The notes beneath the pieces were generated by a model. That model ran no database searches. It worked only from the letters and a program-made list of their open reading frames with translations, and was not told the origin of the DNA. From a virus, in IMG/VR virus record IMGVR_UViG_3300030102_000637, positions 1-21,157 of that record: a DNA stretch of 21,157 bases. The stretch is one strand, 5' to 3'. Of the stretch, positions 2,345 through 18,223 are shown piece by piece; the first letter of the stretch is position 1, and each line of letters starts with the position of its first letter. The position numbers were made by a program, and so were the translations under genes.

Positions 2345-3018
2345 TAAATATATCCTAACCTTGGAACTACATGCATAGAAGCTCTCTGTCTATCTTCCTG
2401 CATAGCTCTTGCAAGAAGTTCTTCATAATTAAGTTTTAAAAATTGTATTCTATCTGCTGGAACTAATGGTCTTTTTATAGACATATAGTAAGCTAGACCC
2501 ATTGTTAAACATGGTAAAAATCTTTTAGGTACATCAGCATTTTGTGTTGCTGATTTATTTACATCTTGTAATTCTTTTACTAATTCTAATTTAAGAACAT
2601 CAGTTGAATTATCTGGTAGAGGCCACACACGTAAAACAGGATTGTCTCTTTCTCTACGAATAGAGTATTGATTAGGTCTGCCTTTTTGTGTTTTATTTGG
2701 TATAAGTAAATATTCTTCTGAGCTAATTCTTTCTAATTGTAAATCTGTATCATCTCTATTAATAACAACCTCAAGAGCATCTACAGTAGAACTATCTAAA
2801 GAATATGTAGCAGTGCTTGCTGTTACAGTTAAAGAAGAAACAGATGTGCTCCAAAGCATTACACCACGATTTTGCCAATCTTTAAGCATAAGATTAATAG
2901 AACGTCTAGCAGATGCTGGCTCATGACCAAGAGTACTTTCACCACCAATCATCTCTGTAGCTTCTTGAATAACCTCATCTATATCTAGATTAAAGTTATA
3001 TGTTCCTGACACTGCCAT
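2344..3018 (-). CDS. Head-tail adaptor / tail tubular-like protein
   Basis: A 224-residue protein. The region around residues 12-60 (DIDEVIQEATEMIGG, then SARRSINLMLKDWQNRG) matches the pattern I know from connector or tail-tubular-type proteins of short-tailed phages, where helices with an ARRSLN-like motif precede a beta-rich middle. The C-terminal part is helical (FLKLNYEELLARAMQEDRQR), as in adaptors that dock under the portal. The position between the basic cassette and the fibre genes fits a neck or tail-tube component. TAATG overlap with the preceding gene. The family assignment is from memory, so the precise role (adaptor, stopper or tube) is uncertain. Confidence 0.65.
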   Translation of the reverse strand: MAVSGTYNFNLDIDEVIQEATEMIGGESTLGHEPASARRSINLMLKDWQNRGVMLWSTSVSSLTVTASTATYSLDSSTVDALEVVINRDDTDLQLERISSEEYLLIPNKTQKGRPNQYSIRRERDNPVLRVWPLPDNSTDVLKLELVKELQDVNKSATQNADVPKRFLPCLTMGLAYYMSIKRPLVPADRIQFLKLNYEELLARAMQEDRQRASMHVVPRLGYI

Positions 3019-3308
3019 TATTTCTTAGTCCTTCTTCTTACGGCTTTCTTTCTTTTTTTGAAAGTCCTGACCATTGTGGGCTTGCCTCTTACTCCTTGTG
3101 CTTTTGCTCTCTTCCTTGCAACAGCACTCTTGATCTGACCTTTGGTCATGCGTTTCGCAGTGGCTCTTGGTACGCATTTTGGATATTTCCTCTTACTTGT
3201 TTTAGCAGACTTACGACCACAGGCTTGGAACTTGCCCTTTTTCTTTGGAGCACCAATATCAACCCAATCACCCTTTGGGCCTTTTCCAAACCATTCTTTT
3301 AGGCTCAT
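3018..3308 (-). CDS. Small basic phage protein (KEWFGKGPKGDWVDIG type)
   Basis: A 96-residue, strongly basic protein with only three acidic residues, all in the first 17 positions. The N-terminus reads like a small folded motif (KEWFGKGPKGDWVDIGAPKK), followed by a Cys-containing segment (ACGRKS, KYPKCVP), then KRMTKGQIKSAVARKRAKAQ and a Lys/Arg tail. I recognise this arrangement as a small family of unknown function frequent in marine phages. The two Cys residues could bind metal or pair. The ATG overlaps the stop of the upstream gene (ATGA). The high charge suggests nucleic-acid contact. That is inference. Confidence 0.75.
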   Translation of the reverse strand: MSLKEWFGKGPKGDWVDIGAPKKKGKFQACGRKSAKTSKRKYPKCVPRATAKRMTKGQIKSAVARKRAKAQGVRGKPTMVRTFKKRKKAVRRRTKK

Positions 3309-3487
3309 GCGTAACCACCACCACGTTTTTTATACGTCCTAACTAACCATGCATTTGCATATGCTGAAGGATATACCTTAAACTTACGTTTAGCCTCTGA
3401 CTTTACTCTTGCATAGAGACTAGGGTTAGTTGGTCTAGGTGATCCTTTTTTTCTTTTTGTTTTTGGCTTTGGTTTTTTGATTGCCAT
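3305..3487 (-). CDS. Small basic phage protein (YPSAYANAW...YKKRGGGY type)
   Basis: A 60-residue basic protein with a single acidic residue (Glu31). A Lys-rich N-terminus is followed by NPSLYARVKSEAKRK and the C-terminal motif PSAYANAWLVRTYKKRGGGY. That motif is familiar from a compact family of unknown function in phages and giant viruses (I associate it with DUF5872, unverified). The family is often small and stand-alone. It overlaps the end of the 107-residue gene by 53 bases in another frame and overlaps the next gene by 4 bases, so it is translated within a tightly packed cassette. Confidence 0.75.
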   Translation of the reverse strand: MAIKKPKPKTKRKKGSPRPTNPSLYARVKSEAKRKFKVYPSAYANAWLVRTYKKRGGGYA

Positions 3488-3758
3488 CTTTTAATACCTT
3501 TTTTGCTTGTTTAGCGATTCGTACAACTTCATTTTTACCCATTACTTTTGCACGTTGTTCCATAACTGTAAGTATTTGTATTTTACGTGCATAAGGTTTC
3601 TTAATTCGTTTAACTTTAGCTACAGTGGCCCTTGCGTCTGCTGGAGTAGCAAACTTTATACTGACTGTATCTTTTGGATTTTCATCAGTATAAAGTCTGC
3701 GTCCAGAGCCTTTAGGTTTTTTACCTGTTCCTACTTTTGGATCTTTTCTTTTTACCAT
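3435..3758 (-). CDS. Small basic phage protein (KGSGRRLYTDENPKDTV type)
   Basis: A 107-residue protein. Residues 14-55 contain KPKGSGRRLYTDENPKDTVS and an alpha/beta-like stretch IKFATPADARATVAKVKRI. This is followed by KKPYARKIQILTVMEQRAKVMGK and a Lys-rich tail. The first motif recurs in small proteins of marine phages, with no known function. It overlaps the upstream 47-residue gene by 38 bases and the downstream gene by 53 bases. It is the least extreme of the basic cassette proteins, because its core has a normal mix of hydrophobic and acidic residues and probably folds. Confidence 0.75.
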   Translation of the reverse strand: MVKRKDPKVGTGKKPKGSGRRLYTDENPKDTVSIKFATPADARATVAKVKRIKKPYARKIQILTVMEQRAKVMGKNEVVRIAKQAKKVLKDGNQKTKAKNKKKKRIT

Positions 3759-3864
3759 TACCTAAAACTTTCTTTAATGTTTTAGCTTGTCCTGCATGTA
3801 GTTTAGAGGCTTTTTTTAAACCTTTAATAACCTTTTTAACTTTAGCTCTATTTCCTGTTTTCAT
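3721..3864 (-). CDS. Tiny Lys-rich protein
   Basis: A 47-residue reading frame starting MKTGNRAKVKKVIKGL, with 15 Lys and 4 Arg and no acidic residue. The central part (KVIKGLKKASKLHAGQAKTL) can form an amphipathic basic helix, and I have seen this KLHAGQAKTLK-like motif in small proteins of other marine phages. It begins three bases before the stop of the 50-residue gene and ends inside the 107-residue gene, in a different frame. Position and motif support a real gene. The function is unknown, with binding to packaged DNA or RNA as a plausible inference. Confidence 0.7.
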   Translation of the reverse strand: MKTGNRAKVKKVIKGLKKASKLHAGQAKTLKKVLGNGKKKRSKSRNR

Positions 3865-3866
3865 AG

Positions 3867-4019
3867 TTAACGCCTAGCTCGTCCACCGCCACGCCTACGA
3901 ACTGCCCCACCACGACTACGTGTTTTAGTCATCATACGACCACCTCCTTTACGAGTGCGTGTTTTAGTCATCATGCGGCCACCACCCATACGTCTAATTT
4001 TGCTTCTTCCTTTTGCCAT
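3867..4019 (-). CDS. Tiny Arg/Gly-rich protein with internal 13-residue duplication
   Basis: A 50-residue frame with 15 Arg, 5 Lys and no acidic residue. The start is supported by AAGGAGGAG about 7 bases before the ATG, inside the end of the 230-residue gene. It contains GGGRMMTKTRTRK followed directly by GGGRMMTKTRSRG, a 13-residue tandem duplication, and ends in RRRGGGRARR. RGG/GGR-rich tails commonly bind nucleic acid. No known family is recognised. The strong ribosome binding site and its place in the packed cassette argue against a chance frame. Confidence 0.7.
   Translation of the reverse strand: MAKGRSKIRRMGGGRMMTKTRTRKGGGRMMTKTRSRGGAVRRRGGGRARR
3919..3984. repeat. 39-base tandem duplication inside the 50-residue gene
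   Basis: The word CGTGTTTTAGTCATCAT begins at 3919 and again at 3958 on the + strand. The period is 39 bases (13 codons). A few substitutions separate the two copies, so the duplication is not brand new but is still recognisable at the DNA level. Confidence 0.85.
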
Positions 4020-4686
4020 TGGATTTCTCCTCCTTTGCATATAAGTTATTAAAAGTAATATTAGGATTCATATAACTATCATCTATTTCTGCTGAATGAA
4101 TATACTGACTAGGTACAAAATCTGGTGCTCCTTCTCCAGTCTCCCATAAAGCAGGGTTTGTTACTCTTACTCTATTATTAGGTAATGCTACAATATTACC
4201 TGTAAATTCACCAGCATCTATTAACTCTAACACATGTGATTGTTTATGTTGTGCTGGATCATCAGATATATGACTATCAGTATAATCAACTGTAAACATA
4301 TATCTACCTGTATAAAACTCTCCATTTATTTTACAAAGCCAAGGACTAGAAGATGTTCTATCCATAACTATTACACTGTGATTTCTAGCAGAACAATCCC
4401 AAGGTTGTACAAAATGTGTTGGCATTTGATTAGGCCATTCTTCTAATGGTGTATCAGCTACTAAAGCATTAATTGGCATCCTAGCCCACATTGCTCCACC
4501 AGATGTATTTTCTTTTTCATCACAACCTGTAAATACAATTTGAAAACTTAATGATCTATCTGGTATTGTATTTACGGCTATTGCCATTGCATGTAAATAT
4601 TCTCCGTGATATTGTTCATGATTATATGTAAACTCTTTACGCACCCAACATTTAAAATGAGGGATGTTTGATATTAAGTAGGACAT
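3994..4686 (-). CDS. Conserved marine-phage protein of unknown function
   Basis: A 230-residue protein starting MSYLISNIPHFKCWVRKEFT. It is a globular, beta-rich looking sequence with several Trp and Cys residues (FKCWVR, GCDEKE, PWDCSARNH, PWLCKINGEF) and motifs such as HGEYLHAMAIAV. The basic tail (EEKSNGKRKKQN) overlaps the ribosome binding site and start of the next gene. I recall close relatives with the same N-terminus in cyanophages and other marine viruses, always without a function. Its normal composition stands out among the surrounding basic peptides. No enzyme motif was recognised. Confidence 0.75.
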   Translation of the reverse strand: MSYLISNIPHFKCWVRKEFTYNHEQYHGEYLHAMAIAVNTIPDRSLSFQIVFTGCDEKENTSGGAMWARMPINALVADTPLEEWPNQMPTHFVQPWDCSARNHSVIVMDRTSSSPWLCKINGEFYTGRYMFTVDYTDSHISDDPAQHKQSHVLELIDAGEFTGNIVALPNNRVRVTNPALWETGEGAPDFVPSQYIHSAEIDDSYMNPNITFNNLYAKEEKSNGKRKKQN

Positions 4687-4691
4687 TTAGT

Positions 4692-4997
4692 TTAGCATCT
4701 CCATCTTCTTCTTGCTTGTCTCAAGCGGCTATTAGGATTCTTAGCTGCTTTTGGAAACTTCTTCATTTGCCCTGCTGATCTTGCACAGAAAGACTTTCGC
4801 CTTGCTGCTCTTTTTGCTGTTCTAGGTTTTGATTCTGTTACGGCTGTTTGTAATTTAGAACCGGGATTCTTACGTCTATATGCAGCTACACCTTTAGCAG
4901 TCATACCTGCACCAGACTTAGTAGGACGTTTATGACCACCTTTAATGGTCAATCCTTTCATACCTGTCCCTTTTCTTTTTCGTTTACGTGCAGCCAT
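4692..4997 (-). CDS. Small basic phage protein (GMTAKGVAAYRRKNPGSKL type)
   Basis: A 101-residue protein, Lys/Arg-rich throughout with one acidic residue. The motif order is KGLTIKGGHKRPTKSGAG, MTAKGVAAYRRKNPGSKLQ, ESKPRTAKRAARRKSFCARS and a C-terminal RRRWRC. Proteins combining T.KG...Y...GS.L with RRKSFCAR and a final WxC are widespread in marine phages as an unnamed family (I associate it with DUF6321, unverified). Two conserved Cys residues, one in SFCAR and one terminal, may pair or bind metal. It starts one base downstream of the 59-residue gene's stop. The role is unknown. Confidence 0.75.
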   Translation of the reverse strand: MAARKRKRKGTGMKGLTIKGGHKRPTKSGAGMTAKGVAAYRRKNPGSKLQTAVTESKPRTAKRAARRKSFCARSAGQMKKFPKAAKNPNSRLRQARRRWRC

Positions 4998-4998
4998 T

Positions 4999-5178
4999 CT
5001 ATACCTTTACATAAGTATTTTTAAATTTCTTTACTAAAAATTCACACAAATCAGCCCAATACTTTTTCCATTCTTTTGTACACTCTTTACAATTACAATT
5101 TATTTTAAAATTATAATCTCTTTTGTGAGGTCTAAGTCCACTATAATCTATTTTAGAACTATCTACTTTATAAGCCAT
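4999..5178 (-). CDS. Small Cys-cluster protein, unknown
   Basis: A 59-residue frame beginning MAYKVDSSKIDYSG. It contains CNCKEC (residues 28-33) and one further Cys in WADLCEF, enough for a small metal site, and many aromatic and Lys residues. Its ATG overlaps the stop of the transglycosylase gene (TAATG), the junction style used repeatedly in this cluster, and it fills exactly the interval to the next gene. No family is recognised. Confidence 0.65.
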   Translation of the reverse strand: MAYKVDSSKIDYSGLRPHKRDYNFKINCNCKECTKEWKKYWADLCEFLVKKFKNTYVKV

Positions 5179-6560
5179 TATATAAGTTTATTTGAATAAG
5201 TAGCTTTACCAAAACCTTTTACAGCTTGACCTACACCACGAACTTTACCTCCCACATTACGTTTTACTTTACCACCTGTTTTATACTCTTCTGGTTCTTC
5301 AAAAGCAGAATCACTGGTGTCAAAAGTTACATTACCAAAAGGTGTTTTAACTAGACGTTTTTTACCTTCTAGTCCTTCTTTTCCTCTTAGTCCTACAGCA
5401 CCTTTTACCATTTCACCAAAAGACATTGCTTCATCTTTTTTAGATTTTACATCAAAAGGATCTGAAGAAGATTGATTTGACGGTTTTGTTCCTGTTGGCA
5501 TATCTGGTTTATAACTTTGAATTTTAGGTTTTATTTTAGGAGTAGGAGAAGCTGCTTTTGTTTCTTTTTTCTTATCTCTTGTTGCAAGATATGTAAGACC
5601 ACCAACTACAGGAGTTCCAACTATTATACCTTTTTGAACTGGACTCATTCCAGTTTTCTTATCTGCTGTTGATTTCTTAGCTGTTGTTTTTTTAGCTGCT
5701 GTAGTTTTTTTAACTTTAGGTGTTAATGCTTTTGTTGCTCGTCTTAGAGTTCCAGCATCTTGACTTTTAGATTTTTTATCTACTTTTTTTTGTTTAGCTC
5801 TATTCATTGCAGAAAGTGATTGTTTATTTTTTGTTTGTGCTAGTTTTTTAGCTTTTGCACCAGCTCCTTTTTGACTTCTTAAAGTTTTTACAAGAGCTTT
5901 ACCAGCCGCACCTAAACCTCTACCAGCAAGAGCAAGACCACCACCACCAATAGCACTAGTAGCTAATATAGTAAATCTTTTATTAAATGTTCTACGTGAG
6001 TCTCGATTTAATTTTGCAGCAGTATCTGCACCAATTTTCTTAGCTTCTGCCTTACTTTTACCTTCATTTAAAGCTTTAGTAGTAGCTCTTAGTCCAGCTT
6101 GAATAGCTCTATTTTCAGCAGGTGTTCCTGTAATAGCACGTTCTGTTTGTCTCATTCTACTCATAGGTTCTCTCTCAATTTGTTTAGCTGGTTGTCCTAA
6201 TTCTTTGCGAACTTTTTTAATATAATTTTTTGTTTCTGTTGGTAACTTTTTTTTACCTTTAATAAATTTATCAGCATTACTCGGACCAAAGTTATAAGCA
6301 ATTAAAGCTGCATTTAAATCTCCGGGGTATCTTTTACGCATTGCTTTTAAATATTGACGACCAACTCTATCTAATTCACTAGATTTAAAACTTCCATCTC
6401 TATTTCTTCTAGCAGGTTTAATACCAAATCCGGGTTTTGCTGCTGTTGCTGGCATAACTTGCATCCTACCTAAAGCACCTTTAGGACTTACAGCATCAGG
6501 ATCACCGCCACTTTCAACTTGCATAACAGCTTTTTGAAGTAAACGATCACTAATAGCCAT
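5178..6560 (-). CDS. Virion-associated lytic transglycosylase with long basic tail
   Basis: A 460-residue protein. Residues 1-115 carry the SLT/lysozyme-like signature: likely catalytic Glu16 in VESGGD, then SPKGALGRMQVMPATA, NAALIAYNFGP (an AYNAGP variant) and TKNYIKKV. The family cleaves the glycan strands of peptidoglycan. In short-tailed phages such enzymes are usually packaged and used at infection to let DNA cross the wall. The remaining 340 residues are Lys/Ala-rich with two hydrophobic stretches (about 197-222 and 311-326). They contain SRMRQTERAI (134-143), GLTYLATRDKKKETK (321-335), DTSDSAFEE (414-422) and GG-basic motifs near the end. Two of these motifs recur in the 236-residue protein and one in the 500-residue protein. 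A role as an internal virion or ejection protein is inferred. Confidence 0.85.
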   Translation of the reverse strand: MAISDRLLQKAVMQVESGGDPDAVSPKGALGRMQVMPATAAKPGFGIKPARRNRDGSFKSSELDRVGRQYLKAMRKRYPGDLNAALIAYNFGPSNADKFIKGKKKLPTETKNYIKKVRKELGQPAKQIEREPMSRMRQTERAITGTPAENRAIQAGLRATTKALNEGKSKAEAKKIGADTAAKLNRDSRRTFNKRFTILATSAIGGGGLALAGRGLGAAGKALVKTLRSQKGAGAKAKKLAQTKNKQSLSAMNRAKQKKVDKKSKSQDAGTLRRATKALTPKVKKTTAAKKTTAKKSTADKKTGMSPVQKGIIVGTPVVGGLTYLATRDKKKETKAASPTPKIKPKIQSYKPDMPTGTKPSNQSSSDPFDVKSKKDEAMSFGEMVKGAVGLRGKEGLEGKKRLVKTPFGNVTFDTSDSAFEEPEEYKTGGKVKRNVGGKVRGVGQAVKGFGKATYSNKLI

Positions 6561-6562
6561 AA

Positions 6563-6739
6563 TTAGTCTTCTACTTTAAAAGATTTACCTTGAGTGTAGT
6601 CTTCATCTACAACTACATCTTGAGGCGGTCCTTTTACATCTGGACCTTTACGTGCAGCACCATAGCCTTGTCCAGTAGGTCTGCCTACAATATCATCTAA
6701 ATCATATGGACGTTTAATTAGTGTATGAGGTCCAATCAT
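6563..6739 (-). CDS. Small protein of unknown function
   Basis: A 58-residue frame beginning MIGPHTLIKRPYDLDDIVG and ending in DYTQGKSFKVED. Its start overlaps the stop of the 26-residue frame (AATGA), and GAGGAG lies about 6 bases upstream. It has a normal composition and ends two bases before the transglycosylase start codon region. No family is recognised. The tiling with neighbours and the ribosome binding site support a real gene. Confidence 0.6.
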   Translation of the reverse strand: MIGPHTLIKRPYDLDDIVGRPTGQGYGAARKGPDVKGPPQDVVVDEDYTQGKSFKVED

Positions 6740-6816
6740 TTCTTTCTCCTCTTTTTCTTTCGTTTCTTTTTAGGTGGTTTAGTTACCTGTTGTTTAATAC
6801 TTGATCTACTAATCAT
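6736..6816 (-). CDS. Tiny Lys/Arg peptide (26 residues)
   Basis: A 26-residue frame whose second half is almost entirely Lys and Arg (14 of 26 residues basic, none acidic). It starts inside the end of the 236-residue gene (8-base overlap) and stops over the next ATG. Part of the Lys/Arg coding run AGAGGAGAAAG doubles as the ribosome binding site of the next gene. It could therefore be a by-product of that purine-rich stretch, but it matches the basic-peptide theme of the cluster. Confidence 0.4.
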   Translation of the reverse strand: MISRSSIKQQVTKPPKKKRKKKRRKK

Positions 6817-7519
6817 CGTACATCATAGATACAATTTGACCACCAGTCATAGCAGTAACTATTCTACCACCTTTTTTTGCATATCCCATTTTATTAACTG
6901 TTTCTGGACTTTCTTTTTTTAAAGCTGCCAGCCCCGGTTGTGTTTCAGGATCAATAGGTTTTAAAGCTCCACCAGCTTGACGTTTTACTTTAGGAGGTAA
7001 TTGTTTGTAATCTGTCACTGTACCTTTATCAACAAAAACTTCTGTTTCATCTGGTCCGGGTATACGATCAGTAGTTTTCTTTTGTTTAGAAGGTGTAGGT
7101 TTTCTTTTAGGAACTGGTGGTGAAGTTACTTTAGATTTAGTTTTTTTAACTTTTCTTTTTTTATCTCCTAATTGTGGACCTATACTTCTTTCAGTTGCTT
7201 TCATTCTACTAGCTACATTAGTTTTACTATCTATAGCTTTTTTAACTTTTCTTCTTTTATCTCCTTTTGATTCTTTGTTCTTATTTTTAGTTCCAAGATA
7301 TGTAAGACCAGATCCTACTGTAGCTCCAGTTGTTGCTGCTCCACCTATAACTTTACCTGTTATTCCTTGAGATAATGTTGCTTGAGTTGTATTTCTACTT
7401 TTAGATTTCCTACCTTTAGATTTTTTAGTTGCTCTACCTATACCTTTACCTATATTTTTACCTGTTTTATAAAGGTCATATCCTAATTTTGCTAATCTTA
7501 CTAATCCTGCTCCTGCCAT
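6809..7519 (-). CDS. Basic internal-virion-type protein
   Basis: A 236-residue protein. I place the start at the ATG at 7519 (MAGAGLVRLAKLG) because GGAGAG lies 5 bases upstream and the frame further upstream overlaps the previous gene. It is Lys-rich with a glycine-rich hydrophobic segment (about residues 53-75), then GLTYLGTKNKNKESK (71-85) and SRMKATERSI (104-113), both also present in the transglycosylase protein but in the opposite order. The middle is Pro/Lys-rich and the C-terminus carries KKGGRIVTAMTGGQIV. These features suggest a packaged protein able to contact DNA or membrane. No named family is recognised. Confidence 0.7.
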   Translation of the reverse strand: MAGAGLVRLAKLGYDLYKTGKNIGKGIGRATKKSKGRKSKSRNTTQATLSQGITGKVIGGAATTGATVGSGLTYLGTKNKNKESKGDKRRKVKKAIDSKTNVASRMKATERSIGPQLGDKKRKVKKTKSKVTSPPVPKRKPTPSKQKKTTDRIPGPDETEVFVDKGTVTDYKQLPPKVKRQAGGALKPIDPETQPGLAALKKESPETVNKMGYAKKGGRIVTAMTGGQIVSMMYDD

Positions 7520-8630: not shown

Positions 8631-9551
8631 TTAAGAACCAGCACTTCCAAAGAAGCCACGCCAATCAGATACACCAAAGCTATATCGCTCTCGTGCCTTA
8701 AAGCGTAAGTTACCAGTATCAAAATCAGGCTCCATTTTTGTTTGAAGCGGAGAACGAACAAACATTTTTGTACCATTAGGAACATCTGTCTTAATGAAAT
8801 ACGAGTTTGTATCCGTAAACCTGCGATTGATAAAGTAACCTTCTGGAATCATGCCCAAGTGACGAGTGGCGTTTATAGCGTTCGTATTTGGGTTTGCCGC
8901 AGCAGCACTTGTTTGAGTGTTACCGGGGCTTGCCAAAATACGATCTGTAATCGCCCATGAATCAACAGGAACATGAAGTGAAATAGCACTTGCACCAATT
9001 AAAATACCACGATCATCTTTAATTTTTTGAATCGTAGTAAGAGCAGTTTCAAGTGTTGCTTCTGTAAGATCAGCCGCTGCAAGAAGGTTAGACTGATTAC
9101 CATCAGAGATTGTGGGGTGTGCGGCAGAAAAGAACGCAGCACCATCACCAATGGTGTCAGAAAAACCGTTATTGAAAAGATTAGCAGCTTTCACTTGTTT
9201 GGTATTTGCCATTGCACGAGCAAGGCCACGAGCACGAAGCTTGGCAAAAGAATCATATAGATTGTCTTCCATTGCTTCTTCCGTGACTGCAAAAGCAAGA
9301 GCTACAGTCTCGTGTGTATAACGAGCCGTGAAGCTTTCTTGTGCATTGTCAAAACTGACAGTTGCACCTTCACCCTTTACAGGGGCAGTACCAAAACCAG
9401 TGAAGAGCACTTCCTCTTCAAAAGCACGATCTGAGTTTTCAGTTTCATAGAGAGGTGCGTGTTCATCGTTTACCTCTCCATACTCCATTCCGAATACAGC
9501 ATTTAGACCCGGAAGGAGTTGTTTGCTAATACTAGCTCTATTAATAGCCAT
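8631..9551 (-). CDS. Major capsid protein
   Basis: A 306-residue protein starting MAINRASISKQLLPGLNAVFG. The opening LLPGLNAVFGMEYGEV, the central GAAFFSAAHPT and VPVDSWAITDRIL, and the C-terminal RFKARERYSFGVSDWRGFFG match the pattern I know from HK97-fold major capsid proteins of Mu-like and related marine phages. It forms the icosahedral shell. The length is normal. AGGAGGG precedes the ATG. It lies downstream of scaffold and decoration genes and is followed by a strong hairpin, consistent with very high expression. Its DNA looks visibly richer in G and C than the flanking genes. There is no N-terminal protease-cleaved delta domain, so a separate scaffold is expected, and one is present. 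Confidence 0.92.
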   Translation of the reverse strand: MAINRASISKQLLPGLNAVFGMEYGEVNDEHAPLYETENSDRAFEEEVLFTGFGTAPVKGEGATVSFDNAQESFTARYTHETVALAFAVTEEAMEDNLYDSFAKLRARGLARAMANTKQVKAANLFNNGFSDTIGDGAAFFSAAHPTISDGNQSNLLAAADLTEATLETALTTIQKIKDDRGILIGASAISLHVPVDSWAITDRILASPGNTQTSAAAANPNTNAINATRHLGMIPEGYFINRRFTDTNSYFIKTDVPNGTKMFVRSPLQTKMEPDFDTGNLRFKARERYSFGVSDWRGFFGSAGS

Positions 9552-10715: not shown

Positions 10716-11681
10716 CTATCTTATATCTGTATATTCGCCATCAGCCTGAGTAACTTTCATTTTCTCAGCAGCATATTGTTCAAGTGGGATACCCCATTTA
10801 TTAGCAAGCCTTACGTCTTCTTTTGAAAGCTTAACTTTTTTACTAGAGGTTGGAGATGAGCGTGAACTCCCCGACACCACTTGAGCAGGTTGCTTCGTGT
10901 TATCCTGCACACGTTGCGAAGTTTGACCAAAAGCCGTTTCCAACCTCTTATCAATTTCTTCGTAAAATTCGTCACCATTAGGATCATATCCTTCATTCTT
11001 TAATTCTGCATCTAATGCTAATGCAGCAGCAGTCTTAATTGTATCTTTACCAAACCATTCATTTTCTTCAGCCCACTCTTGAGCTTTAGGATCTACAGTT
11101 TGAGTTTGTTGTTGCTGTTGAACTTGTGGTTGTACTTGTTCTTGTTCTTGTTGTTTAGCTTGTCTTTCAACTCTATTCTTCCAATTTTTTATAGCTTTTA
11201 ATTCAGTTTTAGCTTCTAATAAAGCTTCTTGTGCAGCTAGAGATTTATCTTTATCTCCAGATTCAAAAGCTTCAAGATAAGACTGTCTAGCAAGTTCAAC
11301 TGTTCTTTCTAAGTTTTGTTCATTAGTATTAATACTTGAGCTTGTAACTTGTACTAAATCATCAGATTTAGTTTTTAAACTATCTTGTAACTCTTTATTT
11401 TGTGCTAATAATTTTTCAATTTGTTCTTCACGTTCTTTACGTTGTCGTATAAGTTGTTTGATTCTTTTTTCAGCACCTTTAGTTTTAATACCTTCTAATT
11501 CTTTAGGTTCTTCTTTAACTTCTTCTTTTTGAGGTGCAGCTTCAATAACCTCTTCTTTTGGTTTTTCTTCTACAGCTTCAATAGATTTTTCTTCTTCACC
11601 TTCTACTTCAAATTCTATTTTATTTTCTTCTTCTTTAGATGGGACTTCGATTGTATCCCAACCTTCATTTTGATCACTCAT
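10716..11681 (-). CDS. Scaffolding protein
   Basis: A 321-residue protein starting MSDQNEGWDTIEVPS. Residues 1-70 are extremely Glu-rich, then a long coiled-coil region (about 70-175), then a Gln-rich run (about 178-198). The C-terminal region ends in a compact helical motif, KVKLSKEDVRLANKWGIPLEQYA (residues about 283-305). This is the classic make-up of tailed-phage scaffolds, which co-assemble with the capsid protein through a C-terminal helix motif and are lost on maturation. The location two genes before the capsid gene supports it. A sigma-70-like promoter lies 51 bases upstream of the ATG, and CGGAG is the ribosome binding site. Confidence 0.9.
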   Translation of the reverse strand: MSDQNEGWDTIEVPSKEEENKIEFEVEGEEEKSIEAVEEKPKEEVIEAAPQKEEVKEEPKELEGIKTKGAEKRIKQLIRQRKEREEQIEKLLAQNKELQDSLKTKSDDLVQVTSSSINTNEQNLERTVELARQSYLEAFESGDKDKSLAAQEALLEAKTELKAIKNWKNRVERQAKQQEQEQVQPQVQQQQQTQTVDPKAQEWAEENEWFGKDTIKTAAALALDAELKNEGYDPNGDEFYEEIDKRLETAFGQTSQRVQDNTKQPAQVVSGSSRSSPTSSKKVKLSKEDVRLANKWGIPLEQYAAEKMKVTQADGEYTDIR

Positions 11682-16684: not shown

Positions 16685-18223
16685 TCATACATTCCAATAA
16701 GTTGCTCTTCTAGTTCTCTCACCATCTTCATATTCAGGATCGTCAGGATGTGTAAGATTCCATGAGTCTTTCATATAGTGTATAGCCATTGTTAAAGCAT
16801 CTACCTGATCATCATGAGCAGCATTTGGAAACCTTATTAATTCTTCTACTAGATCATCTGCCCACTTTTTATTCATAGGTATCCACACTCTACCTGATTC
16901 CATCATAGGTGTAGATGCGTATACTCGTGCAGTCTTATCTCTATCTGGTGTATAATCTAAAACAGGTAGACCAGCCCTACGCATATCTTGTATAAGTGAT
17001 TGACCAGATGCTTTCTTTTCTATCATACAGACATCAGGCTTATGTTGGTTATACAACTTCTGCGCCAGCCGCCTTAGTTCTGGATATTCAAACCTACCTT
17101 TAATATTACCTAGCAGTATTAAATGTGGGGCATAGTCTTCATACCCTTGATCATCTTGATTATACATATAGAAAATACCCCATGTTTGTATTACACTATA
17201 ATCAGCAGTGCTTGCTGTAGAGAAAGCTGTATCATAAGTTTGTATTACAAAGTCACAGGTAGGTGGTTCATCATACTCCCAGTTTTTAAGCCATCGTTTT
17301 TTTATGAGGCCACCCTCTTCAGGTGTAGGGTCTTGCATGTAAAGAGCGTTCCAATAACGAGAACCATTAGAAGCTTTAATTTCATTCTCATCTATTTTAA
17401 GTACACTATCTGGTTTCCACTCTGGAAAATAACTAGATCCTACTGGAAGATCTAAAAGATCTGCTGCATCTTCATCTAACCATGCTGGTATCTTTACAAC
17501 ATCCCAAGGTATTGTTTCATAGTCAGACATATTCTCTTGTTGTTTTAGAAGCCAGCCACAAAGATCATCATAATGATACCTTGTATTTATTATTACTATA
17601 GCTCCATTAGGCATGATACGTGTTCTAAGTCCAGCAGGATACCATTCTTTTATAAATCTTCTACCTGCACTAGAAATAGCATCTTCTTCTGACATAGCAT
17701 CATCTAAAATTGCTACATGTGCGCCTCGTCCAGCTATTTGTGAGCGTACACCAGCAGCATAGTACATTCCATTTTGGTTTGTCTTCCATTTACCTGCTGC
17801 TCTAACGTCACTTCGTAAAGACACACCATGAAATACCTTTTGAAACTCTTCTGTGTTTACTATATCACGAACTGATCTGCCAAAATCACTGGCTAGTTGA
17901 TCACTATGTGAGATAGTTAGGAGTTCATGTTCAGGATTTCTACCTATGTACCATGCAGGAAAGAGTTTAGAGCAGACAACAGACTTAGAAGATCGTGGTG
18001 GTAGAAAGACCATCAGTCTTTTTATCTCTCCTGATTCTACTTGTTGTAATTTATCAGAGATAACTTCTATGTGTCGCCCCATTTTAAAGCCAGACACAAG
18101 ACTAGGTGCTACTAATCTTACAAAAGACAAGAAGTCAGTGTTACATTGTTGATTAACTTGCTGAGACAACAGCCCTTCAAGCTGTATATAAGACTCTATA
18201 TAGTTACTATTTAGTTGTTCCAT
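16685..18223 (-). CDS. terL: Terminase large subunit
   Basis: A 512-residue protein, the usual length for TerL. The ATPase half shows a Walker A-like LPPRSSKS (residues 74-81), Walker B AILDDAMS (171-178, acidic D174/D175) and a coupling motif IVIINTRYHYDD. The nuclease half shows QTYDTAFS (D331), CMIEKKASGQSLIQ (E402) and HDDQVDALTMAIHYM (D471, D472, D475). TerL drives DNA into the empty head through the portal and cuts the concatemer. PPRSSKS in place of GxxxxGK(T/S) is common in phage TerLs. Its promoter lies at 18311-18339 and it starts the late cluster. No small terminase gene is next to it. Confidence 0.95.
   Translation of the reverse strand: MEQLNSNYIESYIQLEGLLSQQVNQQCNTDFLSFVRLVAPSLVSGFKMGRHIEVISDKLQQVESGEIKRLMVFLPPRSSKSVVCSKLFPAWYIGRNPEHELLTISHSDQLASDFGRSVRDIVNTEEFQKVFHGVSLRSDVRAAGKWKTNQNGMYYAAGVRSQIAGRGAHVAILDDAMSEEDAISSAGRRFIKEWYPAGLRTRIMPNGAIVIINTRYHYDDLCGWLLKQQENMSDYETIPWDVVKIPAWLDEDAADLLDLPVGSSYFPEWKPDSVLKIDENEIKASNGSRYWNALYMQDPTPEEGGLIKKRWLKNWEYDEPPTCDFVIQTYDTAFSTASTADYSVIQTWGIFYMYNQDDQGYEDYAPHLILLGNIKGRFEYPELRRLAQKLYNQHKPDVCMIEKKASGQSLIQDMRRAGLPVLDYTPDRDKTARVYASTPMMESGRVWIPMNKKWADDLVEELIRFPNAAHDDQVDALTMAIHYMKDSWNLTHPDDPEYEDGERTRRATYWNV

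Follow-up and report, generated by a model that had tools for sequence, protein, structure and literature searches.

A set of small, strongly basic protein modules, found as separate genes in one phage and as natural fusions in other ocean phages, is best explained as internal head proteins. The window analysed here comprises the first 21,157 nucleotides of a 50,082-base IMG/VR virus record (IMGVR_UViG_3300030102_000637), and its minus strand carries terminase, portal, GroES-like, capsid and adaptor genes. Within this virion gene cluster lie seven basic genes, six of them in a cassette at 3018-4997 and the seventh at 6736-6816. We consider it fairly probable (about 0.6) that their products are loaded into the prohead and packed with the DNA. 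Phages with a prohead protease would encode them as a cleavable polyprotein, and those in which none was found as individual genes, some with a capsid-like tag. The seven genes are listed below with their net charges and with the ratio of nonsynonymous to synonymous substitution rates (dN/dS).

4692-4997, minus strand: A101, basic module A (Pfam DUF6321); PF19846 E=1.4e-13; net charge +33; dN/dS 0.18
3867-4019, minus strand: C50, an Arg/Gly-rich basic protein of 50 residues; net charge +20; relatives in 22 loci; dN/dS 0.43
3721-3864, minus strand: D47, a Lys-rich basic module of 47 residues; net charge +19; dN/dS 0.46
3435-3758, minus strand: E107, basic module E; net charge +27; dN/dS 0.18
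3305-3487, minus strand: F60, basic module F (Pfam DUF5872); PF19197 E=3.1e-9; net charge +18; dN/dS 0.20
3018-3308, minus strand: G96, basic module G with a conserved Cys pair; phrog_23735 E=2.5e-21; net charge +33; dN/dS 0.10
6736-6816, minus strand: H26, a tag like the capsid N-terminus followed by a polybasic tail; net charge +14; dN/dS 0.12 (few sites)

A preliminary description of this DNA had reported a run of basic genes of 101, 50, 47, 107, 60 and 96 codons, with one of 26 at 6736-6816, and all of these coordinates check. The same is true of its counts of Lys plus Arg and of Asp plus Glu, which are 20 and 0 in C50 and 19 and 0 in D47. The basic genes of the run are real; the description omitted an acidic gene of 230 residues (3994-4686), and its wording that acidic residues are almost absent is loose given the 8 in E107. 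Neighbouring cassette genes overlap by 4 bp (G/F), 53 bp (F/E) and 38 bp (E/D). Among the 25 genes accepted as real in the minus-strand cluster, the seven are the most basic, with 25 to 54 net positive charges per 100 residues as against -6.5 to +16 in the others. Values of dN/dS were pooled over up to 14 relatives, and the capsid gene (0.12) and two antisense open reading frames, ORFs (0.89 and 1.54), served as controls. By this measure purifying selection acts on A, E, F and G (0.10-0.20), which rules out a coding artefact for these four, and constraint is weaker on C50 (0.43, low complexity) and D47 (0.46, a short conserved motif). The suspicion that such frames might lack conserved starts and stops in related genomes does not hold for A, E, F and G, whose stops are kept in close relatives (e.g. 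loci L006, L060 and L186) and whose starts are nearly always kept. Seven residues of G96 (L, W, W, C, G, C, P) are invariant over 48 sequences.

That these genes form a functional set, as had been proposed, is strongly supported by their adjacency and by natural gene fusions. Relatives of the capsid protein, the fused proteins, F and G were collected from IMG/VR, and the modules were mapped on them by profiles. G lies within 500 bp in 77 of the 80 loci found via F, and F is adjacent in 69 of the 71 loci found via G. The position of the set varies by phage: it stands between capsid and adaptor genes, upstream of GroES in HTVC027P, and beside the terminase elsewhere. The modules are fused in many combinations, E-G-F-A among them; module D is found joined to F (15 ORFs) or to A (4 ORFs). 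A single protein of T4-like cyanophages, encoded between the terminase small and large subunit genes, comprises E, G, F and A as domains, with A at its C-terminus. At locus L230 a head-maturation protease (E=4.7e-49) is followed by the A, G and F modules in a single fusion, and the same arrangement is seen at L232. Two further observations concern the fused proteins. A protein of 962 residues (L160, 3697-6585) has SARE-x-LD-x-I-like linkers repeated around a module A, and is possibly another polyprotein with cut or address repeats of its own. Several others, including those at L100 (4627-5475) and L121 (5578-7434), share a short Cys-pair motif, CWKGYEKKGMKTMFGKRYPNC, that is similar to the second half of module G.

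The joined arrangement tends to occur where there is a prohead protease. Proteases of families S77 and S78 were sought in all of the records underlying 52 loci and in that of this phage, S78_2 in most of them, and ClpP and S49 in the first batch. Of the 15 records with joined modules, 10 yielded a prohead protease, whereas the 38 with separate modules, this phage included, yielded none (Fisher p=1.5e-7). That p-value overstates independence, since four of the positives are T4-like and others nearly duplicate one another, and since many of the records are fragmentary. S-CREM2 was counted as joined though only module A is recognised there, and the first count becomes 9 of 14 when it is excluded. 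Family searches of the 50-kb record of this phage returned none of S77, S78, S78_2, ClpP or S49. In the linkers of 48 fused T4-like proteins, a hydrophobic-x-Glu-small motif occurs 146 times as against 68 +/- 8 in shuffled sequences, with 3 occurrences inside domains; this enrichment is partly a matter of composition because the reversed motif reaches 95. Sf-CH8 has the same motif in its capsid protein (LSE|A at 57) and ten copies of it in its scaffold protein, which is what a gp21-type protease would lead one to expect. A structural model of the fused L121 protein has folded domains with low-confidence stretches between them (the E domain has a predicted local distance difference test score above 90), and 7 of 9 candidate sites, with Lys also allowed after Glu, are in or within 5 residues of such stretches. 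On the proposed model the fused proteins would be cut at their linkers. Between its basic modules the L121 protein also contains a DUF192-like domain (residues ~272-350; 3pjy, 37% identity), which was the only match in a fold search with the model and is absent from the window.

A second possible route into the head is suggested by the start of H26, which resembles that of the major capsid protein of the same phage.

8631-9551, minus strand: major capsid protein; phrog_371 major head protein E=4.3e-20; N-terminus MAINRASISKQL

H26 reads MISRSSIKQQVTKPPKKKRKKKRRKK, that is, a segment like the capsid start and then a polybasic tail. H26-like peptides were found in 45 loci, the window included. 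Of 31,087 distinct ORF N-termini, 58 have a capsid-head score of at least 22, and a basic tail follows the tag in 49 of these 58 (84%) as against 8.9% of all N-termini. The tag also starts E modules (L187, L279 and L209), an A module (L183) and an ORF containing D (L309). The residue two after the tag Arg tracks the phage's own capsid protein: 34 pairs have an S-class residue in both, 3 have Q in both and 2 are mismatched (one pair left out; Fisher p=0.001, kinship not corrected). By its sequence the tag is what a head address signal would look like. It could instead be a mere leftover of a duplicated capsid gene start, with no address function, since the tag and the capsid N-terminus are alike in sequence and in register, as duplication would give. 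That explanation is possible but doubtful to us: tags stand on E, A and D modules besides H26, the tag varies with its own capsid protein, and H26 is under constraint, albeit over few sites.

Evidence from virions comes from published relatives. In the proteome of S-CREM2 particles purified on caesium chloride, ORF137 (108049-109521) was detected with four unique peptides and 4.1% coverage (PMC10665884), and ORF137 carries the A domain. A literature search found no mass-spectrometry paper on pelagiphage virions. The support from virions is real but thin, as the A-domain protein of a second cyanophage, S-SZBM1, went undetected. The earlier suggestion of packaged head proteins is supported indirectly, by the head-maturation protease fusion, the detection in S-CREM2, the link between a prohead protease and the joined form, and the capsid-like N-terminal tags; the accompanying idea of DNA condensation is plausible only from the charge of the modules. 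The analysis turned up nothing that speaks either way on RNA binding, which the same description had also suggested.

On this evidence the modules would be made late and drawn into the prohead during assembly, would stay with the packaged DNA and neutralise part of its charge, and would probably exit with the DNA at ejection. Phages with a prohead protease would string the modules as one polyprotein, which would enter the prohead and be cut in its linkers. Phages in which no prohead protease was found, that of the window included, would use one gene per module, and the capsid-like tag on H26, or on E, A or D modules in some relatives, would allow binding to the scaffold or to the interior of the shell. 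A broader proposal, which we advance tentatively, is that this is a protamine-like modular system widespread in marine phage heads, in which exchangeable basic modules are loaded by either of two interchangeable routes and are packed with the genome in amounts relevant to its charge. One route would be a polyprotein cut by a protease; the other would be separate genes, some bearing a mimic of the phage's own capsid N-terminus as address.

Several points weigh against internal head proteins. The coverage of ORF137 is just 4.1%, the A-domain protein of S-SZBM1, gp192, was not among the proteins detected in that phage (PMC9146016), and the virion data come from phages other than this one and its close relatives. 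The association between protease and architecture is confounded by phylogeny and by fragmentary records, with no correction for kinship, and the linker-motif enrichment, being modest beside the reversed motif, was discounted. A strict T4 capsid-targeting pattern occurs 5 times in fused cyanophage relatives as against 1.8 +/- 1.4, which is not significant and was not used, although gp192 of S-SZBM1 does start with MKTFKQYITEA; no T4-type capsid targeting sequence was found on the window proteins. A fold search with a low-confidence model of G96 matched no solved fold, and DNA binding is suggested by charge.

The modules might alternatively act as cofactors of the packaging motor, binding DNA or terminase during packaging without being retained in the virion. 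Among the annotated neighbours of module F the terminase large subunit is the most frequent, and the fused protein of T4-like cyanophages is encoded between the two terminase genes. In the window and in many relatives, however, the set is distant from the terminase gene (terL at 16685-18223, the separate module genes at 3018-4997), and the head protease fusion and capsid-like tags point to the prohead interior. The S-CREM2 proteome list, which includes ORF137, contains neither terminase subunit (PMC10665884), and we regard the motor explanation as unlikely. The protease fusion and the tags fit a prohead stage equally well if the modules are scaffold or assembly helpers that occupy the prohead core during assembly and are cleared from it either before DNA packaging or in the course of it. 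Such a role is quite unlikely in our estimate: the strongly basic charge suits co-packaging with DNA, one A-domain protein has been reported from mature virions, and the phage's candidate scaffold gene is the most acidic in the cluster.

A host-directed function would mean that late in infection the modules bind to the nucleic acid or ribosomes of the host, their place in the late operon being incidental. It would agree with the high charge, which would suit RNA or nucleoid binding, and with Ma-LMM01, where an A-type gene lies among replication genes and not head genes. We think it very improbable in view of the location in the late virion cluster, the head protease fusion and the capsid-like tags.

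Database families say little about what the modules do. A101 scores 51.7 bits against DUF6321 (PF19846; curated cut-off 28.5) and F60 scores 37.9 bits against DUF5872 (PF19197; curated cut-off 27.5). C50, D47, E107 and H26 have no match in PHROGs and none above cut-off in Pfam. All of the Pfam and PHROG families matched by the cassette are of unknown function, and no member matches an ejection-protein family in either collection. The literature search returned nothing on DUF6321 and, for DUF5872, a single mention, which concerns an algal giant virus (PMC12085832). Sequence searches of solved structures with A, F and G gave nothing usable. A cyanophage A-domain protein matches 519 phage records. 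In a collection of 84,980 species genomes module F has only 20 matches, all on contigs of ~4-62 kb whose titles, with few exceptions, name metagenome or single-cell assemblies. These contigs may well be viral, and the idea that module F is of cellular origin was set aside.

By terminase, the closest isolates are pelagiphages HTVC027P and HTVC023P and phage 023Pt_psg01, at an identity of ~40%. Two acidic genes of the cluster bear on the set.

3994-4686, minus strand: B230, an acidic companion gene of 230 residues and unknown function; phrog_3704 E=3.7e-34; dN/dS 0.17
10716-11681, minus strand: an acidic gene of 321 residues, candidate scaffold; phrog_28737, unknown function

B230 sits inside the cassette, between A101 and C50, and at 34 of the 71 G loci it lies no more than 3 kb from G. 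Its family phrog_3704 is called ferredoxin and its relative in HTVC023P and HTVC027P is called PurM; B230 has no Pfam match, and both names look like misannotations. The 321-residue gene lies upstream of the capsid gene and is the most acidic of the 25 cluster genes, a position and charge from which it is a candidate for the scaffold. The transglycosylase gene (5178-6560) and a 236-residue gene (6809-7519) are both basic and have in common a G-x-TYL-x-T-x-x-KKK-like segment; they may form an ejection-protein block because the transglycosylase matches internal virion protein families. At 1-2084 there is a long, repetitive, fibre-like gene, cut by the window edge, that matches phage structural and tail fibre families.

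The modules are common in marine phages, yet no function has been assigned to their Pfam and PHROG families. Should the modules prove to be internal head proteins, several unknown families would be explained together, phages of very abundant ocean bacteria would gain a protein contribution to genome packing, and a new natural signal that directs proteins into phage heads would be available. At ~300 copies each, a figure assumed from the T4 internal proteins, the seven would carry ~49,000 positive charges, enough to match about half the phosphates in a 50-kb genome.

Ejection proteins of the P22 and T7 type resemble the cassette in being encoded among virion genes, here next to a transglycosylase gene with matches to internal virion protein families, but the cassette members are far smaller, have no enzymatic domain and match no ejection-protein family. 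Chlorovirus core proteins are basic, DNA-associated and packaged, and have been proposed to neutralise DNA; the same source states that there is no evidence of basic proteins contributing much to neutralising phage dsDNA genomes (PMC3281028). The window modules share their basic charge, and co-packaging with DNA is proposed for them. The T4 internal proteins, which are basic and packaged at ~300 copies, provide a precedent (PMC9026906). Like IPI, IPII and IPIII, the window proteins are small and strongly basic (net +14 to +33), belong to the virion programme and in part bear a putative N-terminal address, with prohead delivery and DNA association proposed, and their joined form co-occurs with a gp21-type protease. 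They differ in that the tag of H26 resembles the capsid N-terminus and not the T4 targeting sequence, and in that they form a conserved, exchangeable set. The cassette is not filed with the T4 internal proteins because no T4-type targeting sequence on these proteins, no prohead protease (S77 or S78) in this phage and no common sequence family was found. With Pfam DUF6321 and DUF5872, to which A101 and F60 belong by score, the comparison leads to families that have no assigned function. Homologous modules E, G, F and A are found in the phrog_727, phrog_10346 and phrog_3477 proteins of T4-like cyanophages (T4-GC_119 of S-BM3), and for A, F and G of the window this homology is seen in profile matches over the natural fusions. 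There the modules make up one protein encoded between terS and terL, whereas in the window they are separate genes between the transglycosylase and the neck genes.

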